Shown in pieces: positions 4,666 to 31,085 of a stretch of DNA of 51,091 bases. The stretch lies in contig JAHRWI010000007.1 of NCBI GenBank assembly GCA_019090225.1, positions 1-51,091 on the forward strand, given 5' to 3'. Numbering within the stretch: the stretch's first letter is position 1; the number at the start of each line of letters is the position of its first letter. The notes under the pieces were generated by a model. It was not told the origin of the DNA and searched no databases. It saw nothing but the letters and a program-made list of their open reading frames with translations. This DNA comes from Porticoccaceae bacterium (GTDB taxonomy: Bacteria > Pseudomonadota > Gammaproteobacteria > Pseudomonadales > Porticoccaceae). The position numbers were made by a program, and so were the translations under genes.

Positions 4666-5322
4666 TTAATTAACCGGGGAAGCGGACACCGCCCCAGCTT
4701 CGGCCAATAAAGCCACGACCGCCTCCGCCATTTTCTGATAACCCTGTTTATTAAAATGCACGGGGTCGGATTTCATGCTCTGATCGGTTTCTAATTCACC
4801 CAGGGTCTGATCGTCGAGCGGCACTTTAAATTCCCTGGCCAGGCGTTTATACAAATCTGGAGCCCGTCCCCAAATACCAGGTTTCGGTACGCCGATTAGC
4901 AAGACCTCCACATCCAATGATTGAGCATGGGATATCATCTCCCGCAAATTAGTTTCCGTCTCAGCCATTGAGAAACGGTGCAAAAAATCATTGCCGCCAT
5001 GACAGATAATCACCAGGCCAGGGGTAAACTCGGTCAATAAATCTTTTAGCCTCAGCTTACCGTCAGCGGTGACCTCCCCCGATACGCCCGCGTTAATCAC
5101 ATTAATATTGATGTGTTTAGCCAGCACGGCTGGATAACTGTTTATCGGCTCAACACCTACGCCAACCGTTAAGCTATCGCCAAAAGCCAGCACCGTTGCA
5201 TCTTCGGGTAGGGGGCTGAGTTTGGCAGAATTTCCACAGCCAGCCAGCATTAAAGCCAGTAATAAAGCGGCAAGACACAACGTAAAATAACGGCTAAAGG
5301 ATACCCCGCGAATCATAATCAT
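4666..5322 (-). CDS. GDSL-type arylesterase/lysophospholipase (TesA-like), lipoprotein
   Basis: Lipobox LMLAGC, FGDSLTVGVG block, GGND block, D..H (DPVHFN) block. Confidence 0.9.
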   Translation of the reverse strand: MIMIRGVSFSRYFTLCLAALLLALMLAGCGNSAKLSPLPEDATVLAFGDSLTVGVGVEPINSYPAVLAKHININVINAGVSGEVTADGKLRLKDLLTEFTPGLVIICHGGNDFLHRFSMAETETNLREMISHAQSLDVEVLLIGVPKPGIWGRAPDLYKRLAREFKVPLDDQTLGELETDQSMKSDPVHFNKQGYQKMAEAVVALLAEAGAVSASPVN

Positions 5323-5324
5323 AT

Positions 5325-6050
5325 TTATGCCTTTATCGCGCCAAACGCTGCAAAACAGCTATTTTTATGGAGTAATTCGACCTGTTCAAAACCCACCTTG
5401 CGGAGTAAATCAAGCTGATAGGTCACTGGCCTGGGCGAGTCTTCCTTTTCAATATAGTCAAAGACCTTTGTTTTATAGGCTTCGCTATCAAGGCCAGTTA
5501 AGTAGTCCCCATAACGCTGCCACATCATCCCTTGCACAGCTTCGGTTTCATGACTGACCAGATCGCTGATCCAGACGCTGCCACCGGGCGCGGTAATGGC
5601 GTAAATTTTCTCGAAGGTTCGCAGCCAGTCGTCGTCATCACGCAAATGATGTAAAACTGCTGCTGCGATAATCACGTCGTAATGATCCGTGGGTAAGTCG
5701 GCATCGCGGAAATCTCCTTGATAAAGCGCAACTCGGCCCGTGTTGACTGCCTCTACTCGCGTTTTAGCACGGGTCAGCATAGCTTCGCTGAGATCGAGTA
5801 GATCACAGTCAAAGGGCCCCACCTTTTCCAACAGCCGCAAAGTATTGTTACCGGCACCACAGCCGATATCTAATACGTGGCTAATTTTATTGTTGCTCGA
5901 AGCCGCGGCACTGGTCAGCAACTCCATCACCAAAGAAGCATCCACCGTTGAAGTCTGCCCGGTTTCCAGATTCGAGAAGCGTTCGACATCATCGTTAAAA
6001 CGTTCACGAATTTGGGCTACCGTTGATTTATTCTCGAAACCTTTTTTCAT
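5325..6050 (-). CDS. class I SAM-dependent methyltransferase
   Basis: VLDIGCGAGNNTLRLLEKVG motif I, IIAAAVLHHL. Start taken at MKKGFENKST; the ORF track extends to 6128. Confidence 0.88.
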   Translation of the reverse strand: MKKGFENKSTVAQIRERFNDDVERFSNLETGQTSTVDASLVMELLTSAAASSNNKISHVLDIGCGAGNNTLRLLEKVGPFDCDLLDLSEAMLTRAKTRVEAVNTGRVALYQGDFRDADLPTDHYDVIIAAAVLHHLRDDDDWLRTFEKIYAITAPGGSVWISDLVSHETEAVQGMMWQRYGDYLTGLDSEAYKTKVFDYIEKEDSPRPVTYQLDLLRKVGFEQVELLHKNSCFAAFGAIKA

Positions 6051-9188: not shown

Positions 9189-10544
9189 CTAAATTCTAAG
9201 TATGTTTCGGTATCCAGCGATATTCACATCAAAGCTAGTAGTACGCCGCAAATGATCCCGCATGCCCTCAAGGGCATCTGGATCGCCGTGAATTAATTGA
9301 ATTGGCGTATGCTCAGAAAGTTCGGACTGCTGTAACCACTGCTCCAGATCCACGTAATCCCCATGCCCCGATAAGCCGTGCAAAACTTCAATGCGTGCGC
9401 GATTGGGGATCCACTGACCATGTATTTTAACGCTCTCAACACCTTGCTGCATTTTTGCACCACGAGTTCCACCAGCCTGATAGCCGGTAAACAGAACTGT
9501 GGTGCGATGATCACTCAACAGGCGTTTCAGGTGATGCAGAATCCTGCCGCCGGTGGCCATGCCGCTGCCAGCAATTATAATGTGTGGAAAACGTTGATCT
9601 TCGAGCGCCTTGGATTCGTCAACACTGCGCGTGAATTTTATTTTGTCACACATCGCACGGCACTGGTCATGGCTCAGGCGGTGGTAATCGGTATAGCGAC
9701 AATAAATGTCCGACACATCAATCGCCATTGGGCTGTCGAGGTAGACGGGCATCAGGGCAATACGCTCGTCGTTCATCAGCGTAGTCAGCATGTGCTGCAC
9801 AGTCTGCGCACGGCCTACGGCGAAGCTAGGGATCAACAAAGTGCCGCCTTTTTGCGCTGTTGTATTAACCACGTCCGCGAGCTGCTCGAACGGATCCTGT
9901 TTGTCATGACGGCGATTCCCATAAGTGGATTCAAGTAATAATAAATCCAGCTCTGGCAGCGGTTGAGGCGGACGCATAAAAATGTCATCGGGGCGCCCCA
10001 CATCACCTGAAAATCCTATTCGCTTACCTTCCGCCTCAAGAATAATACTAGCTGCACCAAGAATATGCCCAGCCTCTTGCAAACGAAATTTTATATCGCC
10101 GACGGTGACAGTCTCCGCAAAGTTGACTGCCTCAAAAAGAGCCATGCTGGCTTCAGCTGTGGCGCGGTCATAAAGTGGTTCCGGATGCGCATGTTTACTG
10201 AGCTTATGCCTCGCGTAGAACCTGGCATCCTCTTCCTGAATATGACCACTATCGGGAAGCAAAATATGACAGAGCGCTCTGGTCGCGTGATGGGTATACA
10301 CAGGGCCACGAAAACCATGTTTGTAAAGCAAGGGGATGTAACCGGAATGATCCAGATGCGCATGGCTTAGAATGATGGCGTCAAGGTTGCTGATATCGAG
10401 AGGCGGGGCCTGCCAGTTTCTTTCTCTCAGCCATTTGTAACCCTGAAACAAACCGCAATCGACCAATACGCGGCTTGTCTCAGTTTCTACCAGAAACTTG
10501 GATCCGGTGACAGTTTCCGCCCCGCCAAGGAAAATAATTCTCAT
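9189..10544 (-). CDS. MBL-fold/beta-CASP RNA-processing exonuclease family protein
   Basis: MRIIFLGGAETVTGSKFLVET, LSHAHLDHSGYIP, ESTYGNRRH, IAGSGMATGGRILHHLK, HGLSGHGDYVDL. Confidence 0.93.
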   Translation of the reverse strand: MRIIFLGGAETVTGSKFLVETETSRVLVDCGLFQGYKWLRERNWQAPPLDISNLDAIILSHAHLDHSGYIPLLYKHGFRGPVYTHHATRALCHILLPDSGHIQEEDARFYARHKLSKHAHPEPLYDRATAEASMALFEAVNFAETVTVGDIKFRLQEAGHILGAASIILEAEGKRIGFSGDVGRPDDIFMRPPQPLPELDLLLLESTYGNRRHDKQDPFEQLADVVNTTAQKGGTLLIPSFAVGRAQTVQHMLTTLMNDERIALMPVYLDSPMAIDVSDIYCRYTDYHRLSHDQCRAMCDKIKFTRSVDESKALEDQRFPHIIIAGSGMATGGRILHHLKRLLSDHRTTVLFTGYQAGGTRGAKMQQGVESVKIHGQWIPNRARIEVLHGLSGHGDYVDLEQWLQQSELSEHTPIQLIHGDPDALEGMRDHLRRTTSFDVNIAGYRNILRI

Positions 10545-11404
10545 GCCAAAGTCTCATGGAGCCTAATACATTCACCAATGGGCGATATCAGTAAGTCGGT
10601 AATATCCAGTGCATTGGAACGGTGAACAATCGTATTAGTGGTCACCAGTTCGTCGAGCCCTGCACTCATTAATTGAGCGTCAATACCATCAGCAAAAATA
10701 CCGTGTACACCGGCACACTTTATCCCTTGAATGCCTTTTAAGCGCAGTGCCGAAATGCATTTTAAAATGGTCTGCCCGCTGGAGATCACATCATCAATAA
10801 TGACCGCTACATGATGATAAAACCGAGTTAAATCTGGCAAGGTGACCACGACATCCCGATCACCGTGTCGCGTCTTGCTGCCAATCACGAAAGGGTGCCC
10901 ACTGAGGGCTGCAATCTCTGCCAGCCACTGTTCACTTTCAGCATCTGGCCCAACCAATAGTAGATTAGTCTGCCCTTTTAGCCAATCCGCTAGCAAGGGC
11001 GCGCCCTGGACAACTCGAGTGGGGACAGAATAGATTTCATTCAGGGAGTGATAACGGTGCAAATGCGGATCAACCGTCACCAACCAGTCAATTTGCGCCG
11101 ATAACAGCCGGGCAAAAATACGTGAGGTAAGCGCCTCCCCTTCAATAAAACGTCGATCCTGTCGCATATAACTTAAATAGGGCGCGACCAGACCCACCGA
11201 AGCAGCGCCAAATTCACGCAGGGTTGCCAGTAAAAACACCAAAGGTAAGTACTTGTCATCCGGGTGAGATAAGTCAGCGAGTACGACGCAGTGTCTATTT
11301 TGAACAGGCGTATCGATACGTAAATAGGTTTCGCCGTCAGGGAACAAACGGCTATGAGTCTTGCCCTGCTCAAAGGCCATTTTTTCGCACAAAGAGAGCG
11401 CCAA
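10541..11404 (-). CDS. ribose-phosphate pyrophosphokinase family protein (copy 1)
   Basis: YLSYMRQDRRF, VTVDPHLHRYHSL, PRPP loop IIDDVISSGQTI; 4-nt overlap with the downstream MBL gene. Confidence 0.9.
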   Translation of the reverse strand: MALSLCEKMAFEQGKTHSRLFPDGETYLRIDTPVQNRHCVVLADLSHPDDKYLPLVFLLATLREFGAASVGLVAPYLSYMRQDRRFIEGEALTSRIFARLLSAQIDWLVTVDPHLHRYHSLNEIYSVPTRVVQGAPLLADWLKGQTNLLLVGPDAESEQWLAEIAALSGHPFVIGSKTRHGDRDVVVTLPDLTRFYHHVAVIIDDVISSGQTILKCISALRLKGIQGIKCAGVHGIFADGIDAQLMSAGLDELVTTNTIVHRSNALDITDLLISPIGECIRLHETLA

Positions 11405-23148: not shown

Positions 23149-23943
23149 ATGACGGACGCAAATGGCAAATTATGGATCGAGCACGAAGGTGAAGGCCCTT
23201 TATTTGCCACGGCTGTTCACGCGGGACACCAGATCCGTCGCCAGTTGGCGCCGATTATCGCCCTTGATGATACGGCTCGCTCCCGGGAAGAAGACCCCTA
23301 TACCGATTATCTCGCCAGGGTAGTGCCTACCTGGCTGGTGCCAACCCGCTCTCGCTTCGAAGTCGATCTCAACCGACCCCGGGATGAGGCGATCTATTCA
23401 GCGCCCGAACTAGCCTGGGGGCAGCACGTCTGGAAACACCCCCCGAATCCCGGTCAGATCAAAACAAGCCTGGCGGAATACGATGCTTTCTATACAGAGC
23501 TGGAAAAACTGCTCAACAGGATGGTTCAGCACCATAAGCGCTTCGTGGTCTTCGATCTGCATACCTATAACTATCGACGCGAGGGCGCAGACGCGCCGCC
23601 CGCAGATCCTGCTTTAAATCCAGATGTAAATATCGGCACCGGCTCGCTGGACCGAGTCCGCTGGGGCAAGCTGACGGATCGGTTTATGGCTGATCTCGCC
23701 GCATTTGATTTCTGTGGCCGCCGTCTTGATGTGCGCGAAAATGTTAAGTTTAAGGGGCGGGAGCTGGCTCAATGGATCCACACCCATTTTGCTGAATCTG
23801 CGGCCGTACTCTCCATAGAGTTCAAAAAATTCTTTATGGATGAATGGACTGGCGTTGGCGAGATTGAGCAGATTCAGGGTATTCGAGATGCGCTACAGTC
23901 GACCATACCGGGCATCCTGGAAGAATTGCAGAGACTCCCTTGA
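23149..23943 (+). CDS. N-formylglutamate amidohydrolase family protein
   Basis: TAVHAGHQIRRQLAP, SREEDPYTD, RFEVDLNRPRDEAIY, FDLHTYNYRREG. Confidence 0.9.
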   Translation: MTDANGKLWIEHEGEGPLFATAVHAGHQIRRQLAPIIALDDTARSREEDPYTDYLARVVPTWLVPTRSRFEVDLNRPRDEAIYSAPELAWGQHVWKHPPNPGQIKTSLAEYDAFYTELEKLLNRMVQHHKRFVVFDLHTYNYRREGADAPPADPALNPDVNIGTGSLDRVRWGKLTDRFMADLAAFDFCGRRLDVRENVKFKGRELAQWIHTHFAESAAVLSIEFKKFFMDEWTGVGEIEQIQGIRDALQSTIPGILEELQRLP

Positions 23944-25835
23944 CCAGGCAGACGACAGACAAACTGTTGACGGAAATCAGTCAGGCTATAAGCGACAATA
24001 GCCCGCTGAGCAAAAAGCTGCCGGACGGCAGTTTTTTGCATCTTGATCGCCAACTGCCCTTTCTCTGTGTCTATCGCGGAGACATTCGCGGAGATATTCA
24101 CGGAGAGATGGAAGGCTCACCAAAGGCGATGGAAAGCCTTTTGCGCGGAACGCCGGCCTACCTGCTGGTCAACGAGCATCCTGCCCGACTAAAAACCACC
24201 CGTGCACTGCTGGTCGCGATTATTGAAAAGCTTGGTGATTATTTTGACCAGATTTGCCTGCTTGAATTGTGGTCGTCTGCGCCGCAACAGGACGCCTCCC
24301 TGACACCCGAATTCGAAATCCTGGCGTCATCGACAGGTACGCCAGTTAAATTTCTGGAAGAATTTGAAAACGCGCTGCTGCATATTACCGTCGACAATCT
24401 TAAGGCCAACATTGAGATAGGCTACCAGCAAAATATCGCACCACCGGGACTTGAGCCCATACTGACCCGTACTCAACTGACTGCCTTAAACTGCATTCCT
24501 GTCGGCCTGGCGATAAAGCCTGTTTATCTCGATGTAAAAACGGCCGAGGTACTGCCCTTTCATTTACAGGACCTGCACCAGGGGCTAACCCGGGCGCTGA
24601 AACGAGGCTTTTACGCCTTTGCCCATCATCACACCCATATCCGGCCCCGTCATTTCCACGAGCTCGGCAACCGATCTATCACCAAAGCAGTTTGGCAGAC
24701 AGATCGTCGTCTGGCCGAGATCAGTGCAACTTTCGATTTGTTACTCTATGTCTCGCCCGTCAACAGTAGTGCTGCGTGGCAGGAATTTGAGGCCAGCGAC
24801 TATGAACGTGAAGCGTCATTTCTTTACCGAGCGCGCAATGTAAACCCTTCTCTGCTCAAGCGGCAGTTGTTTCAGATTCCCATCGAAGCAATCGAAGATC
24901 CAACTCTGGCCCACATTTTCTCCGAAAAACGCAATGAACTGGATCGCCAGATTACTCTGGTGGCTGACCGCAACACCGAGCGTTTTCTGCTCGGCAGTCG
25001 GCAAATTTACGGTGACGTCGAACCAGAACTACTTGAACAGGCCCACCTGCTACTGGAGGCCATCGACCCCTCCCAGCCGACAGCCCAGAACGACTACCTC
25101 GCTCCACAGCAAATCGCCGAGCGCGCTAGACTGGAGCTGGACAAATACCGCGAGCAGGACCCCTCGTTAAAATCGACCGTGTCCGTACGTGGCGACGTGC
25201 CAGGCATTCTGGTCTCACAGGGCAACCTCCTTATAGGACAGGATGCCAGCGTACTGTCATCGCGCATCAATGCCCTGATCAGTCACGAAGTAGGCACACA
25301 CATCGTCACCCACCACAATGGCGGGCTGCAGCCGTTTCGGGAGCTGAGCGTCGGCATGGCAAGCTACGAGGAATTGCAGGAGGGGCTGGCGGTACTGGCG
25401 GAATACCTGGTGGGTGAACTGTCACCCAGCCGTCTGCGAACTCTTGCCGCTCGGGTACTTGCGGTTGATTGTATTACCTCAGGGGCCAGCTTTATCGATT
25501 GCTTTCGGGTGCTGTACAGGGACCACGGCTTCCATCCACATACTGCATTTAATATCACAATGCGGATCTTTCGAGGCGGCGGATATACCAAGGATATCGT
25601 TTACCTGCGCGGCCTCAAACACTTGCTGGAGGCACTTGCTGATGGTTACCCACTGGAATCCCTCTATCTGGGTAAAATCTCCCACCAACATCTGGACTTT
25701 GTCGAAGAACTGCAGTGGCGCCAGATATTGCAACCACCCACCTTAACACCCACTTTTCTGGATAGCCCTGAAGCGGAGCCACGACTTCAGGCCCTGAGCA
25801 ATGGGCTCACCCTTACGGACTTGATCAAAGAGTAA
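23940..25835 (+). CDS. DUF1704 / QEGLA-motif putative zinc metallopeptidase
   Basis: HExxxH as HEVGTH at 25284-25301, followed by ELQEGLAVLAEYL (QEGLA at 25377-25391); overlaps the upstream stop. Confidence 0.88.
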   Translation: MTRQTTDKLLTEISQAISDNSPLSKKLPDGSFLHLDRQLPFLCVYRGDIRGDIHGEMEGSPKAMESLLRGTPAYLLVNEHPARLKTTRALLVAIIEKLGDYFDQICLLELWSSAPQQDASLTPEFEILASSTGTPVKFLEEFENALLHITVDNLKANIEIGYQQNIAPPGLEPILTRTQLTALNCIPVGLAIKPVYLDVKTAEVLPFHLQDLHQGLTRALKRGFYAFAHHHTHIRPRHFHELGNRSITKAVWQTDRRLAEISATFDLLLYVSPVNSSAAWQEFEASDYEREASFLYRARNVNPSLLKRQLFQIPIEAIEDPTLAHIFSEKRNELDRQITLVADRNTERFLLGSRQIYGDVEPELLEQAHLLLEAIDPSQPTAQNDYLAPQQIAERARLELDKYREQDPSLKSTVSVRGDVPGILVSQGNLLIGQDASVLSSRINALISHEVGTHIVTHHNGGLQPFRELSVGMASYEELQEGLAVLAEYLVGELSPSRLRTLAARVLAVDCITSGASFIDCFRVLYRDHGFHPHTAFNITMRIFRGGGYTKDIVYLRGLKHLLEALADGYPLESLYLGKISHQHLDFVEELQWRQILQPPTLTPTFLDSPEAEPRLQALSNGLTLTDLIKE

Positions 25836-25839
25836 CCCG

Positions 25840-26841
25840 ATGAAAATAGGCTTTGTGGTTAACGACCTTCAAACAGAATATGCCGGCTACACCAGTACAC
25901 TACTGGCCCAGGCAGCCTGCCGCCTGGGTCACGAGGTCTGGTACATGGGCGTTGGTGATTTTTCCCTGCGACCGGACGACCATACTTTCGCGCTAGCGCG
26001 CAGCCTTGCCCCGGGAGAATATCAAAGTGGTCAAGCATTGCTCGACCGACTCAGGGATGAGCAAACTCCGGCGACGAGAGTTTGCGTCGATGATCTGGAT
26101 TTTCTGTTGCTGCGCAATGACGCCAATGCCGATGCACTGGGGCGTCCCTGGGCACGCATGGCCGGTATTAATTTTGGTTTCCTGGCACAACGTCATGGCG
26201 TCGAAGTACTCAATGATCCGGGAACCCTGGCCCATTCGTTGACCAAACTTTATCTTCAGTATTTTCCAGAAAGCATCCGGCCGAAAACACTTATTACCCA
26301 CGACTACGATGAATCCCTGGAGTTTATAGCGTCCATGGATGGTTACGGCGTGATCAAACCCCTGTTCGGTTCGGGTGGCAGAAATGTCTTTCTAATAAGG
26401 CCCAGCGACCGGCCCAATGTCCACCAGATGATGGACGTCATCTTTCGCGAAGAAGGTTACATGATCGTGCAGGAGTATTTACCGAAAGCGGTCGAAGGCG
26501 ATACCCGGCTATTTATGGTGGACGGTGAGTTACTGGAGATCGATGGAAAAATTGCCGCTATTCACCGTATTCCCGATACAAAAATAGGCGATATGCGCAG
26601 CAATATGACCGCTGGGGGCACCTCCCATAAAGCCGAAATCACCCAACAGGCACGCCGAATCGCAGAAGTTGTTGGCCCCAAACTCAAAGAGGACGGTATT
26701 TTTATTGCCGGTCTTGATATCGTCGGCGACAAAGTGATGGAAATTAATATCCTGAGCCCGGGAGGCATGTTAAGTGCCGAAAGACTCGAAGGGGTGTCTT
26801 TCAGTGAAAAGATTATTCGTTTGCTCGAACAGAAAATTTGA
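25840..26841 (+). CDS. GshB/RimK-like ATP-grasp ligase
   Basis: MKIGFVVNDLQTEYAGYTSTLLAQAA; GVIKPLFGSGGRNVFLI; MIVQEYLP; GDTRLFMVDG; MEINILSPGGM. Confidence 0.9.
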   Translation: MKIGFVVNDLQTEYAGYTSTLLAQAACRLGHEVWYMGVGDFSLRPDDHTFALARSLAPGEYQSGQALLDRLRDEQTPATRVCVDDLDFLLLRNDANADALGRPWARMAGINFGFLAQRHGVEVLNDPGTLAHSLTKLYLQYFPESIRPKTLITHDYDESLEFIASMDGYGVIKPLFGSGGRNVFLIRPSDRPNVHQMMDVIFREEGYMIVQEYLPKAVEGDTRLFMVDGELLEIDGKIAAIHRIPDTKIGDMRSNMTAGGTSHKAEITQQARRIAEVVGPKLKEDGIFIAGLDIVGDKVMEINILSPGGMLSAERLEGVSFSEKIIRLLEQKI

Positions 26842-30566: not shown

Positions 30567-31085
30567 ATGAAACGGATTTACTTTTTACTACCCACGGTAC
30601 AATCAGCGGAGAGCATAGTGACAGAGCTGGTAGCCAATGATCTCCCAGAAAAACGTATTCATCTGATTGCAAACGAAAGCACTTCACTGGAAGATTTGCC
30701 TGAAGCAACACTGCTGCAGAAAAGCGATTTCATCCCCGCCGTGGAGCGCGGCATTCCCATTGGAGGCACGACAGGTTTGCTTGCCGGTCTAGTCGCTATG
30801 GCCATTCCAGGTTTTGGTGGGATTGTTAGTGGAGGTGCGCTTATTGCTACAACCTTAGCCGGTGCAGGTGTTGGTACCTTACTGGGCAGCATGGTGGCAC
30901 TGGAAATTCCTAACACCCGCCACAAGGCCTTTCAGGAAGCCATCGATAAAGGCGAGATCCTTATGCTCGTCGATGCCCCGAAAGATCAGGTCGGCCACAT
31001 AACGGAAGTCGTTATCCGCCATCACGCAGAAGCCGAGTTAGAGGATATAGAGCCGAGAACGGCTCTGCTACCACCAGGTTATTGA
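30567..31085 (+). CDS. hypothetical membrane-associated protein with glycine-zipper segment
   Basis: GGTTGLLAGLVAMAIPGFGGIVSGGALIATTLAGAGVGTLLG; RBS AGAGG. Confidence 0.75.
   Translation: MKRIYFLLPTVQSAESIVTELVANDLPEKRIHLIANESTSLEDLPEATLLQKSDFIPAVERGIPIGGTTGLLAGLVAMAIPGFGGIVSGGALIATTLAGAGVGTLLGSMVALEIPNTRHKAFQEAIDKGEILMLVDAPKDQVGHITEVVIRHHAEAELEDIEPRTALLPPGY

Follow-up and report, generated by a model that had tools for sequence, protein, structure and literature searches.

What would a cell do with an amidohydrolase, a carboxypeptidase-like protein and an ATP-grasp ligase whose genes are packed into one unit? The question is raised by positions 23149 to 26841 of a 51,091-nucleotide stretch from a Porticoccaceae bacterium (contig JAHRWI010000007.1), which is the window analyzed in this study and comes from a fragmented assembly that is 84% complete. 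The unit encodes a protein of the N-formylglutamate amidohydrolase (FGase) family, a long DUF1704 protein (PF08014, now renamed MATCAP) and a ligase related to the glutathione synthetase GshB. There is, in our judgment, about an even chance that this operon is a cytoplasmic tail-editing cycle, in which the ATP-grasp ligase adds an amino acid to a C-terminal carboxylate and the MATCAP and FGase enzymes remove the same amino acid. The features of the locus are as follows.

23149-23943, + strand: FGase gene, 264 amino acids (aa), ATG start; stand-alone FGase-family amidohydrolase, M14-like fold
23940-25835, + strand: long DUF1704 (MATCAP) gene, 631 aa, TTG start
23940-24716, + strand: degenerate FGase-like domain of the DUF1704 protein, first ~259 residues; both metal histidines and the RSRFEVDLNR segment lost
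24780-25799, + strand: MATCAP/DUF1704 gluzincin domain, PF08014 at 277.5 bits
25284-25301, + strand: HExxxH metal-binding/catalytic motif HEVGTH, residues 449-454; H449, E450 and H454 invariant
25377-25391, + strand: QEGLA motif, residues 480-484; Glu481 is the predicted third metal ligand, aligned with EEGLA of human MATCAP
25840-26841, + strand: GshB-like ATP-grasp ligase gene, 333 aa, PF02955 at 154.8 bits
26883-29378, + strand: ppsA, 41 nt past the ATP-grasp gene

Conservation of the operon

The FGase and DUF1704 genes overlap by 4 nt (TTGA, 23940-23943) and a gap of 4 nt separates the DUF1704 and ATP-grasp genes. An earlier note on this DNA had described three packed, co-directional genes with ppsA 41 nt further on, and its positions, overlap and gaps are all exact. 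The FGase-like, DUF1704 and GshB-like identities that it assigned agree with the Pfam and NCBIfam matches.

The three-gene operon is far from a chance cluster, because rhizobial plasmids and 13 sampled families share its gene order. Of the genomes sampled, 43 of 276 in the class and 53 of 398 in the phylum have PF08014. The proteins fall into two kinds, stand-alone MATCAPs (about 380-450 aa), which have no FGase or operon-type ATP-grasp adjoining them, and long proteins (about 600-700 aa). The operon of the window represents type A, in which a separate FGase, a long MATCAP and an ATP-grasp are encoded; this type accounts for the 13 families. Type A is also found on plasmids of Sinorhizobium, Aminobacter, Shinella and Mesorhizobium (rhizobial megaplasmids), where the genes are annotated with three unrelated names: N-formylglutamate amidohydrolase, QEGLA protein and glutathione synthase. 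In type B, found in eight further families, FGase and MATCAP are fused in one protein and the ATP-grasp gene is adjacent in seven of the eight. In alignment, a fused protein of the Vibrionales type splits into two neighboring parts, one matching the rhizobial FGase gene and the other the QEGLA gene, which are separate there. The co-occurrence of DUF1704, ATP-grasp and FGase, for which the earlier note had proposed a neighborhood analysis, is strongly conserved. A single-protein search of the genome contigs returned one locus, which lies on the contig of L054, a locus of the same genus as the window.

A few loci depart from these arrangements. L068 (7167-10110), the second long MATCAP copy of genome G391, has an AstE/AspA-family protein (PF24827) in place of the FGase and has no ATP-grasp. 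L073 lacks the FGase and L038 the ATP-grasp, and the FGase of L069 and of L075 is found 1.5-2 kb upstream. In addition, L040 carries a second, shorter MATCAP of the stand-alone kind (4784-5941, 385 aa) just past its operon of a long MATCAP and two ATP-grasps, and L050 (G025:C45 2571-3666) is a MATCAP pseudogene interrupted by several in-frame stop codons, beside which no operon partners were recognized. At the Vibrionales-type loci L084 (4539-6965) and L064 (10448-11083), the fused FGase-MATCAP gene or its ATP-grasp has a DUF413/MaoP gene as neighbor; Vibrio sp. HDW18 has no ATP-grasp at that place.

The surroundings of the operon were also analyzed. The ppsA gene was rejected as a fourth member of the unit, because it is not found beside the FGase/MATCAP/ATP-grasp operon of L054. 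A general-stress (EcfG) promoter motif was present in only 1 of 26 upstream regions, and a scan for sigma-70 promoters and terminators gave site counts no higher than those in shuffled sequences. A glycine-rich, DUF1269/YflT-like stress protein is encoded near the operon in the window (30567-31085) and in L054 (11282-11797), and possibly in one other family (L046, 3954-4514).

The three enzymes and their active sites

The MATCAP domain is predicted to be a metallocarboxypeptidase with an intact HExxxH...E site. PF08014 matches residues 281-620 with 277.5 bits, against a cut-off of 27. H449, E450, H454, E481 and a KDxxY segment do not vary among the 24 long and fused proteins compared. A single-sequence phmmer search with the DUF1704 protein found no match in the PDB, so profiles were needed: a profile of 24 homologues matched the solved human MATCAP structures 7z5g and 7z6s (E 1e-16 and 1e-15) and aligned the sites of the window protein with HExxxH, EEGLA and KDQVYLDG of human MATCAP. 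Both motifs named by the earlier note are intact, HEVGTH at residues 449-454 and the downstream QEGLA at 480-484. Nor is the third zinc ligand missing, a loss that would have told against the proposal, since Glu481 is invariant and aligned with the Glu of human EEGLA. The model of the full protein has a predicted local distance difference test (pLDDT) score of 92. To our knowledge, no substrate is known for any bacterial MATCAP/DUF1704 protein. The human members, TMCPs, act on tubulin tails as carboxypeptidases and deglutamylases (PMC10499314).

The name under which these proteins are annotated suggests a different role. The NCBIfam model TIGR02421 'QEGLA', whose name rhizobial homologues bear, scores 330 bits with the window protein, just under its cut-off of 338.65, and NCBI calls the family 'flavohemoglobin expression-modulating'. 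A regulatory role in nitrosative stress would fit this name, and the Pseudomonas aeruginosa gene PA3697, which we infer to encode the QEGLA protein, affects the fhp promoter according to a citing paper (PMC8070244). However, the active site is that of an intact enzyme with an obligate enzyme partner, and the name rests on a mutant phenotype that is compatible with an indirect effect. We regard this role as highly improbable and the regulator name of bacterial MATCAP/DUF1704 proteins as misleading.

The DUF1704 protein of the window appears to be composed of two domains, a degenerate FGase-like domain and the MATCAP domain, as judged from profiles and models. Its first ~259 residues have no Pfam match. 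A profile of this region matches the fused FGase domain of type B (hhalign probability 97.1%, E 6e-11, 237 columns), and its hidden Markov model matches fused FGase domains directly. When the region was compared directly with stand-alone FGases, no significant match resulted, and it is the fused form that bridges them. In the combined alignment the N-terminal domain lacks the RSRFEVDLNR segment as well as both metal histidines. Its AlphaFold model (pLDDT 88) gave the M14-like metallopeptidases 3b2y, 3ieh and 2qvp as best Foldseek matches, with the FGase 2q7s also listed; the template modeling scores are modest at about 0.4, and nucleoside phosphorylases, whose fold class is related, rank in between. 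Type A would therefore have two FGase copies, one that looks active and a dead one joined to the carboxypeptidase. In the fused proteins of L063 (5998-7980) and L038 (2055-4073), the FGase domain has lost one metal histidine (DLNS and DVRS, respectively) and the MATCAP site is intact; by their sequences, these losses would be independent steps towards a pseudo-FGase domain.

The separate FGase of the window matches PF05013 with 79.4 bits (curated cut-off 28.9); a single-sequence phmmer search of the PDB found no match. His24, EED47-49, Arg69, Asn75-Arg76 and His138 are invariant in 21 stand-alone and fused homologues, and Glu224 is likewise kept in the window protein. The M14-fold aminoacylases related to FGase recognize a free alpha-carboxylate and act on small N-acyl amino acids. 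The Asn-Arg pair presumably binds the free carboxylate here, as in M14 enzymes and aspartoacylase.

Membership in the FGase family would also suit a unit of degradative or scavenging enzymes that salvage N-formylglutamate or other modified amino acids for general catabolism. The window FGase is the only FGase found in its 84% complete genome, but it scores 22.9 bits with the HutG model TIGR02017, for which the cut-off is 278.75. A search of the same genome for urocanase (PF01175) found no match, an absence that at this completeness is not proof. Plain formylglutamate degradation through a hut pathway, the unrelated role that the earlier note had set against its own proposal, was rejected on these grounds. 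An ATP-consuming ligase would make no sense in a purely degradative unit, and we give salvage very little credence.

The ATP-grasp protein has the two GshB domains (PF02955 with 154.8 bits, PF02951 with 32.4 bits) and has kept the ATP-grasp catalytic motifs. It falls below the cut-offs of the GshB equivalogs (TIGR01380, 179.6 against 299.05; PRK05246, 189.8 against 272) and of the RimK models (TIGR00768, 73 against 143.4; PRK10446, 49 against 331). Its best NCBIfam match is PRK12458, a 'glutathione synthetase' subfamily, with 361 bits. The source genome encodes a canonical GshB on contig C283 and GshA on contig C222, and the operon ATP-grasps and canonical GshB form separate clades in a tree. 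For these reasons, housekeeping glutathione synthesis was rejected as the role of the ligase. Two tandem ATP-grasp genes follow the MATCAP gene in L039 (1838-3980) and L040 (1445-3552); the first L039 copy lacks several conserved ATP-grasp residues, which suggests an inactive partner subunit.

A dedicated small peptide metabolite is the most serious rival to tail editing. The ATP-grasp would make a glutathione-like gamma-glutamyl or N-acyl peptide (a stress metabolite or thiol), MATCAP and FGase would recycle it, and no protein would be modified. The GshB domains and the PRK12458 match speak for this pathway, as do the small N-acyl substrates of FGase relatives, and varied flanking genes suit a housekeeping metabolite. 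Three points speak against it. First, a separate canonical GshB accompanies the operon ATP-grasp in 17 of the 20 operon genomes; canonical GshB was not found in the other three (G317, G391 and G401), which have kept the ATP-grasp, and a PF04262-type gshA was not found in two of these. Secondly, no GCS2/GshA gene was recognized beside the operon. Third, known MATCAPs work on protein tails (PMC10499314). We consider glutathione-like metabolism unlikely.

Links to glutamate ligases and low salinity

The neighborhoods of the operon and of stand-alone MATCAPs suggest a tie to (poly)glutamate chemistry. Directly downstream of the operon, L072 has an RloA-like retropepsin, a seven-transmembrane (7TM) protein with an inactive transglutaminase domain (RloB-like) and a RimK-like ligase. 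L074, from the same family, has RloA- and RloB-like open reading frames after the operon, as identified by sequence similarity; neither an RloA retropepsin nor an RloB inactive transglutaminase is present next to the operon of the window. Polyglutamate is cut by RloA retropepsins, which cells require in hypo-osmotic medium (PMC12239564). In L063 the type B operon and a RimK-family gene lie side by side in divergent orientation. RimK also lies within about 6 kb of a stand-alone MATCAP at 5 of 49 loci (L122, L123, L056, L080 and L137), which represent four families (f138, f30, f161 and f186); two of the loci have RimB too. Four such neighbors were seen in the first 29 loci, against 0.11 expected (P ~5e-6), and about 0.2 would be expected over all 49 if there is one RimK per 4 Mb. 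The replicate set of 20 loci gave only one more, from a family already counted, so RimK linkage is a feature of a minority of loci.

Expression in low salt provides a second link. In an RNA-seq comparison of Photobacterium damselae in 1% and 3% NaCl, A0J47_RS17020 'GshB' was up 38.4-fold, A0J47_RS17025 'QEGLA' 27.5-fold and RimK 52.2-fold at the lower salinity; A0J47_RS17020 was discussed by its authors as glutathione synthetase (PMC10308900). The two genes are very probably a type B operon, because Photobacterium sp. DA100 has exactly this gene order, an ATP-grasp gene followed immediately by a fused FGase-MATCAP gene. In L071 a 2-oxoglutarate (2OG)-Fe(II) oxygenase gene (10435-11148) lies directly upstream of the ATP-grasp and fused gene pair. 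A 2OG-Fe(II) oxygenase, up 11.8-fold, is on the low-salt list of P. damselae too, and the match may be coincidence.

The same induction would suit a free oligo- or polyglutamate osmotic buffer, in which the ligase polymerizes glutamate when osmolarity falls and both hydrolases release it when osmolarity rises. RimK, induced strongly alongside, is also a maker of free poly-alpha-glutamate (PMC10308900, PMC12239564), and the three cytoplasmic enzymes of the unit have no protein partner dedicated to them. However, hydrolases co-expressed with the ligase would oppose it, and the induction is known in one species only. We consider such a buffer improbable.

The tail-editing cycle would run as follows. 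First, from the chemistry of its family, the ATP-grasp would activate the free carboxylate of the acceptor, a peptide or protein tail, with ATP and join an amino acid to it, most likely glutamate. Secondly, the MATCAP domain would take the C-terminal residue off again. Third, the FGase would remove a residue or linkage beyond the reach of MATCAP, such as the first glutamate or one linked through a side chain. The probable role of the inactive FGase-like domain on MATCAP is to position the substrate or to dock the active FGase, and in type B bacteria the fused FGase domain still looks active and would act in cis. The RimK and Rlo linkage and the co-induction at low salinity favor glutamate as the residue and a cytoplasmic peptide or protein tail as its site, and the enzymes are taken as cytoplasmic because their N-termini have, by eye, no evident signal peptide. 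The cycle would be most needed as external salt falls, the same setting as for the RimK/RimB and RloABC polyglutamate systems. The earlier note had proposed that a hydrolase, a carboxypeptidase and a ligase add and remove a group on a peptide, protein tail or glutathione-like metabolite. The cycle, its chemistry being predicted from sequence, withstood the checks on co-occurrence, on the third metal ligand and on a hut pathway, of which no urocanase was found in the 84% complete genome; it is partly supported, and the metabolite is the part that has lost ground.

Several observations weigh against the tail-editing cycle. The ATP-grasp is nearer to GshB than to RimK (PRK12458, 361 bits; rimK_fam, 73 bits). 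Among the top 50 Foldseek matches of the full DUF1704 model were M14-like (from the N-terminal domain) and M32 carboxypeptidases, and no MATCAP entry. One fused-type Vibrio plasmid has no ATP-grasp gene. Flanking genes vary, and no conserved precursor peptide or fourth gene among them names the acceptor. Both the Rlo linkage, found in a single family, and the RimK linkage, which a minority of loci show, came to notice post hoc. The pairing in P. damselae is based on consecutive locus tags and the gene order of another Photobacterium. Lastly, in a mirror-tree analysis the correlations were no higher than those with canonical GshB, and because MATCAP correlates with canonical GshB too (0.85), the analysis is uninformative on co-evolution.

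A bolder form of the cycle, which we put forward tentatively and hold distinctly less probable than tail editing itself, is that reversible modification of the C-terminal tail of one specific cytoplasmic protein acts as a hypo-osmotic stress switch, a widespread bacterial equivalent of the eukaryotic tubulin tyrosination/glutamylation cycle. The MATCAP carboxypeptidase and its dedicated, non-RimK ATP-grasp ligase would carry it out with the help of the FGase and the pseudo-FGase domain. If true, it would suggest that the animal detyrosinase has bacterial ancestors.

Comparison with known systems

The families involved are known; what appears to be undescribed is their fixed combination, together with the fusion and the pseudo-FGase domain. 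The operon is not described as a system in the open-access papers searched, nor was one found among them that joins the FGase and ATP-grasp terms; subscription papers and Iyer et al. 2009 (amidoligases) lay outside the scope of both searches. The tie to a fixed ligase, a second hydrolase, polyglutamate systems and low salt makes the function of bacterial MATCAP testable. If the tail-editing cycle is right, reversible C-terminal tail editing would be common in bacteria, with a carboxypeptidase homologous to the animal detyrosinase, and the annotation of the P. damselae gene taken for an ordinary glutathione synthetase would be corrected.

Two known enzymes resemble single members of the operon. 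GshB shares its domain architecture and ATP-grasp active site with the operon ligase, which differs in scoring under the equivalog cut-offs, in forming its own clade and in co-existing with a canonical GshB encoded elsewhere in the same genome. HutG, also a member of PF05013, and AstE/AspA share a fold class with the window FGase, which lies far under the HutG cut-off in a genome where no urocanase was found and has a carboxypeptidase and a ligase as partners.

Three systems resemble the operon as a whole. In eukaryotes, MATCAP/TMCP1-TMCP2 (KIAA0895L, KIAA0895) and TTL/TTLL likewise pair an HExxxH...E carboxypeptidase functionally with an ATP-grasp C-terminal ligase, and the carboxypeptidases trim terminal residues including glutamate, as proposed for the operon. 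The operon differs in being bacterial, in having a GshB-like ligase in place of TTL, in carrying an FGase or pseudo-FGase domain and in having an acceptor other than tubulin. RimK-RimB is an ATP-grasp glutamate ligase and a peptidase in a reversible C-terminal cycle of the kind proposed here, and RimK is found near stand-alone MATCAPs and is co-induced at low salt in P. damselae; there, however, the opposing enzyme is a retropepsin and the substrate is RpsF, and the operon ligase is of another ATP-grasp family. RloA-RloB-RloC combines an ATP-grasp and a peptidase under hypo-osmotic stress with an acidic peptide substrate, and adjoins the operon in L072 and, as RloA and RloB, in L074. RloA is secreted and RloB is a 7TM membrane protein, whereas the operon has neither and looks cytoplasmic. 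On the tail-editing reading, the operon would belong with these systems to a common theme of tail modification by an ATP-grasp ligase and a peptidase.

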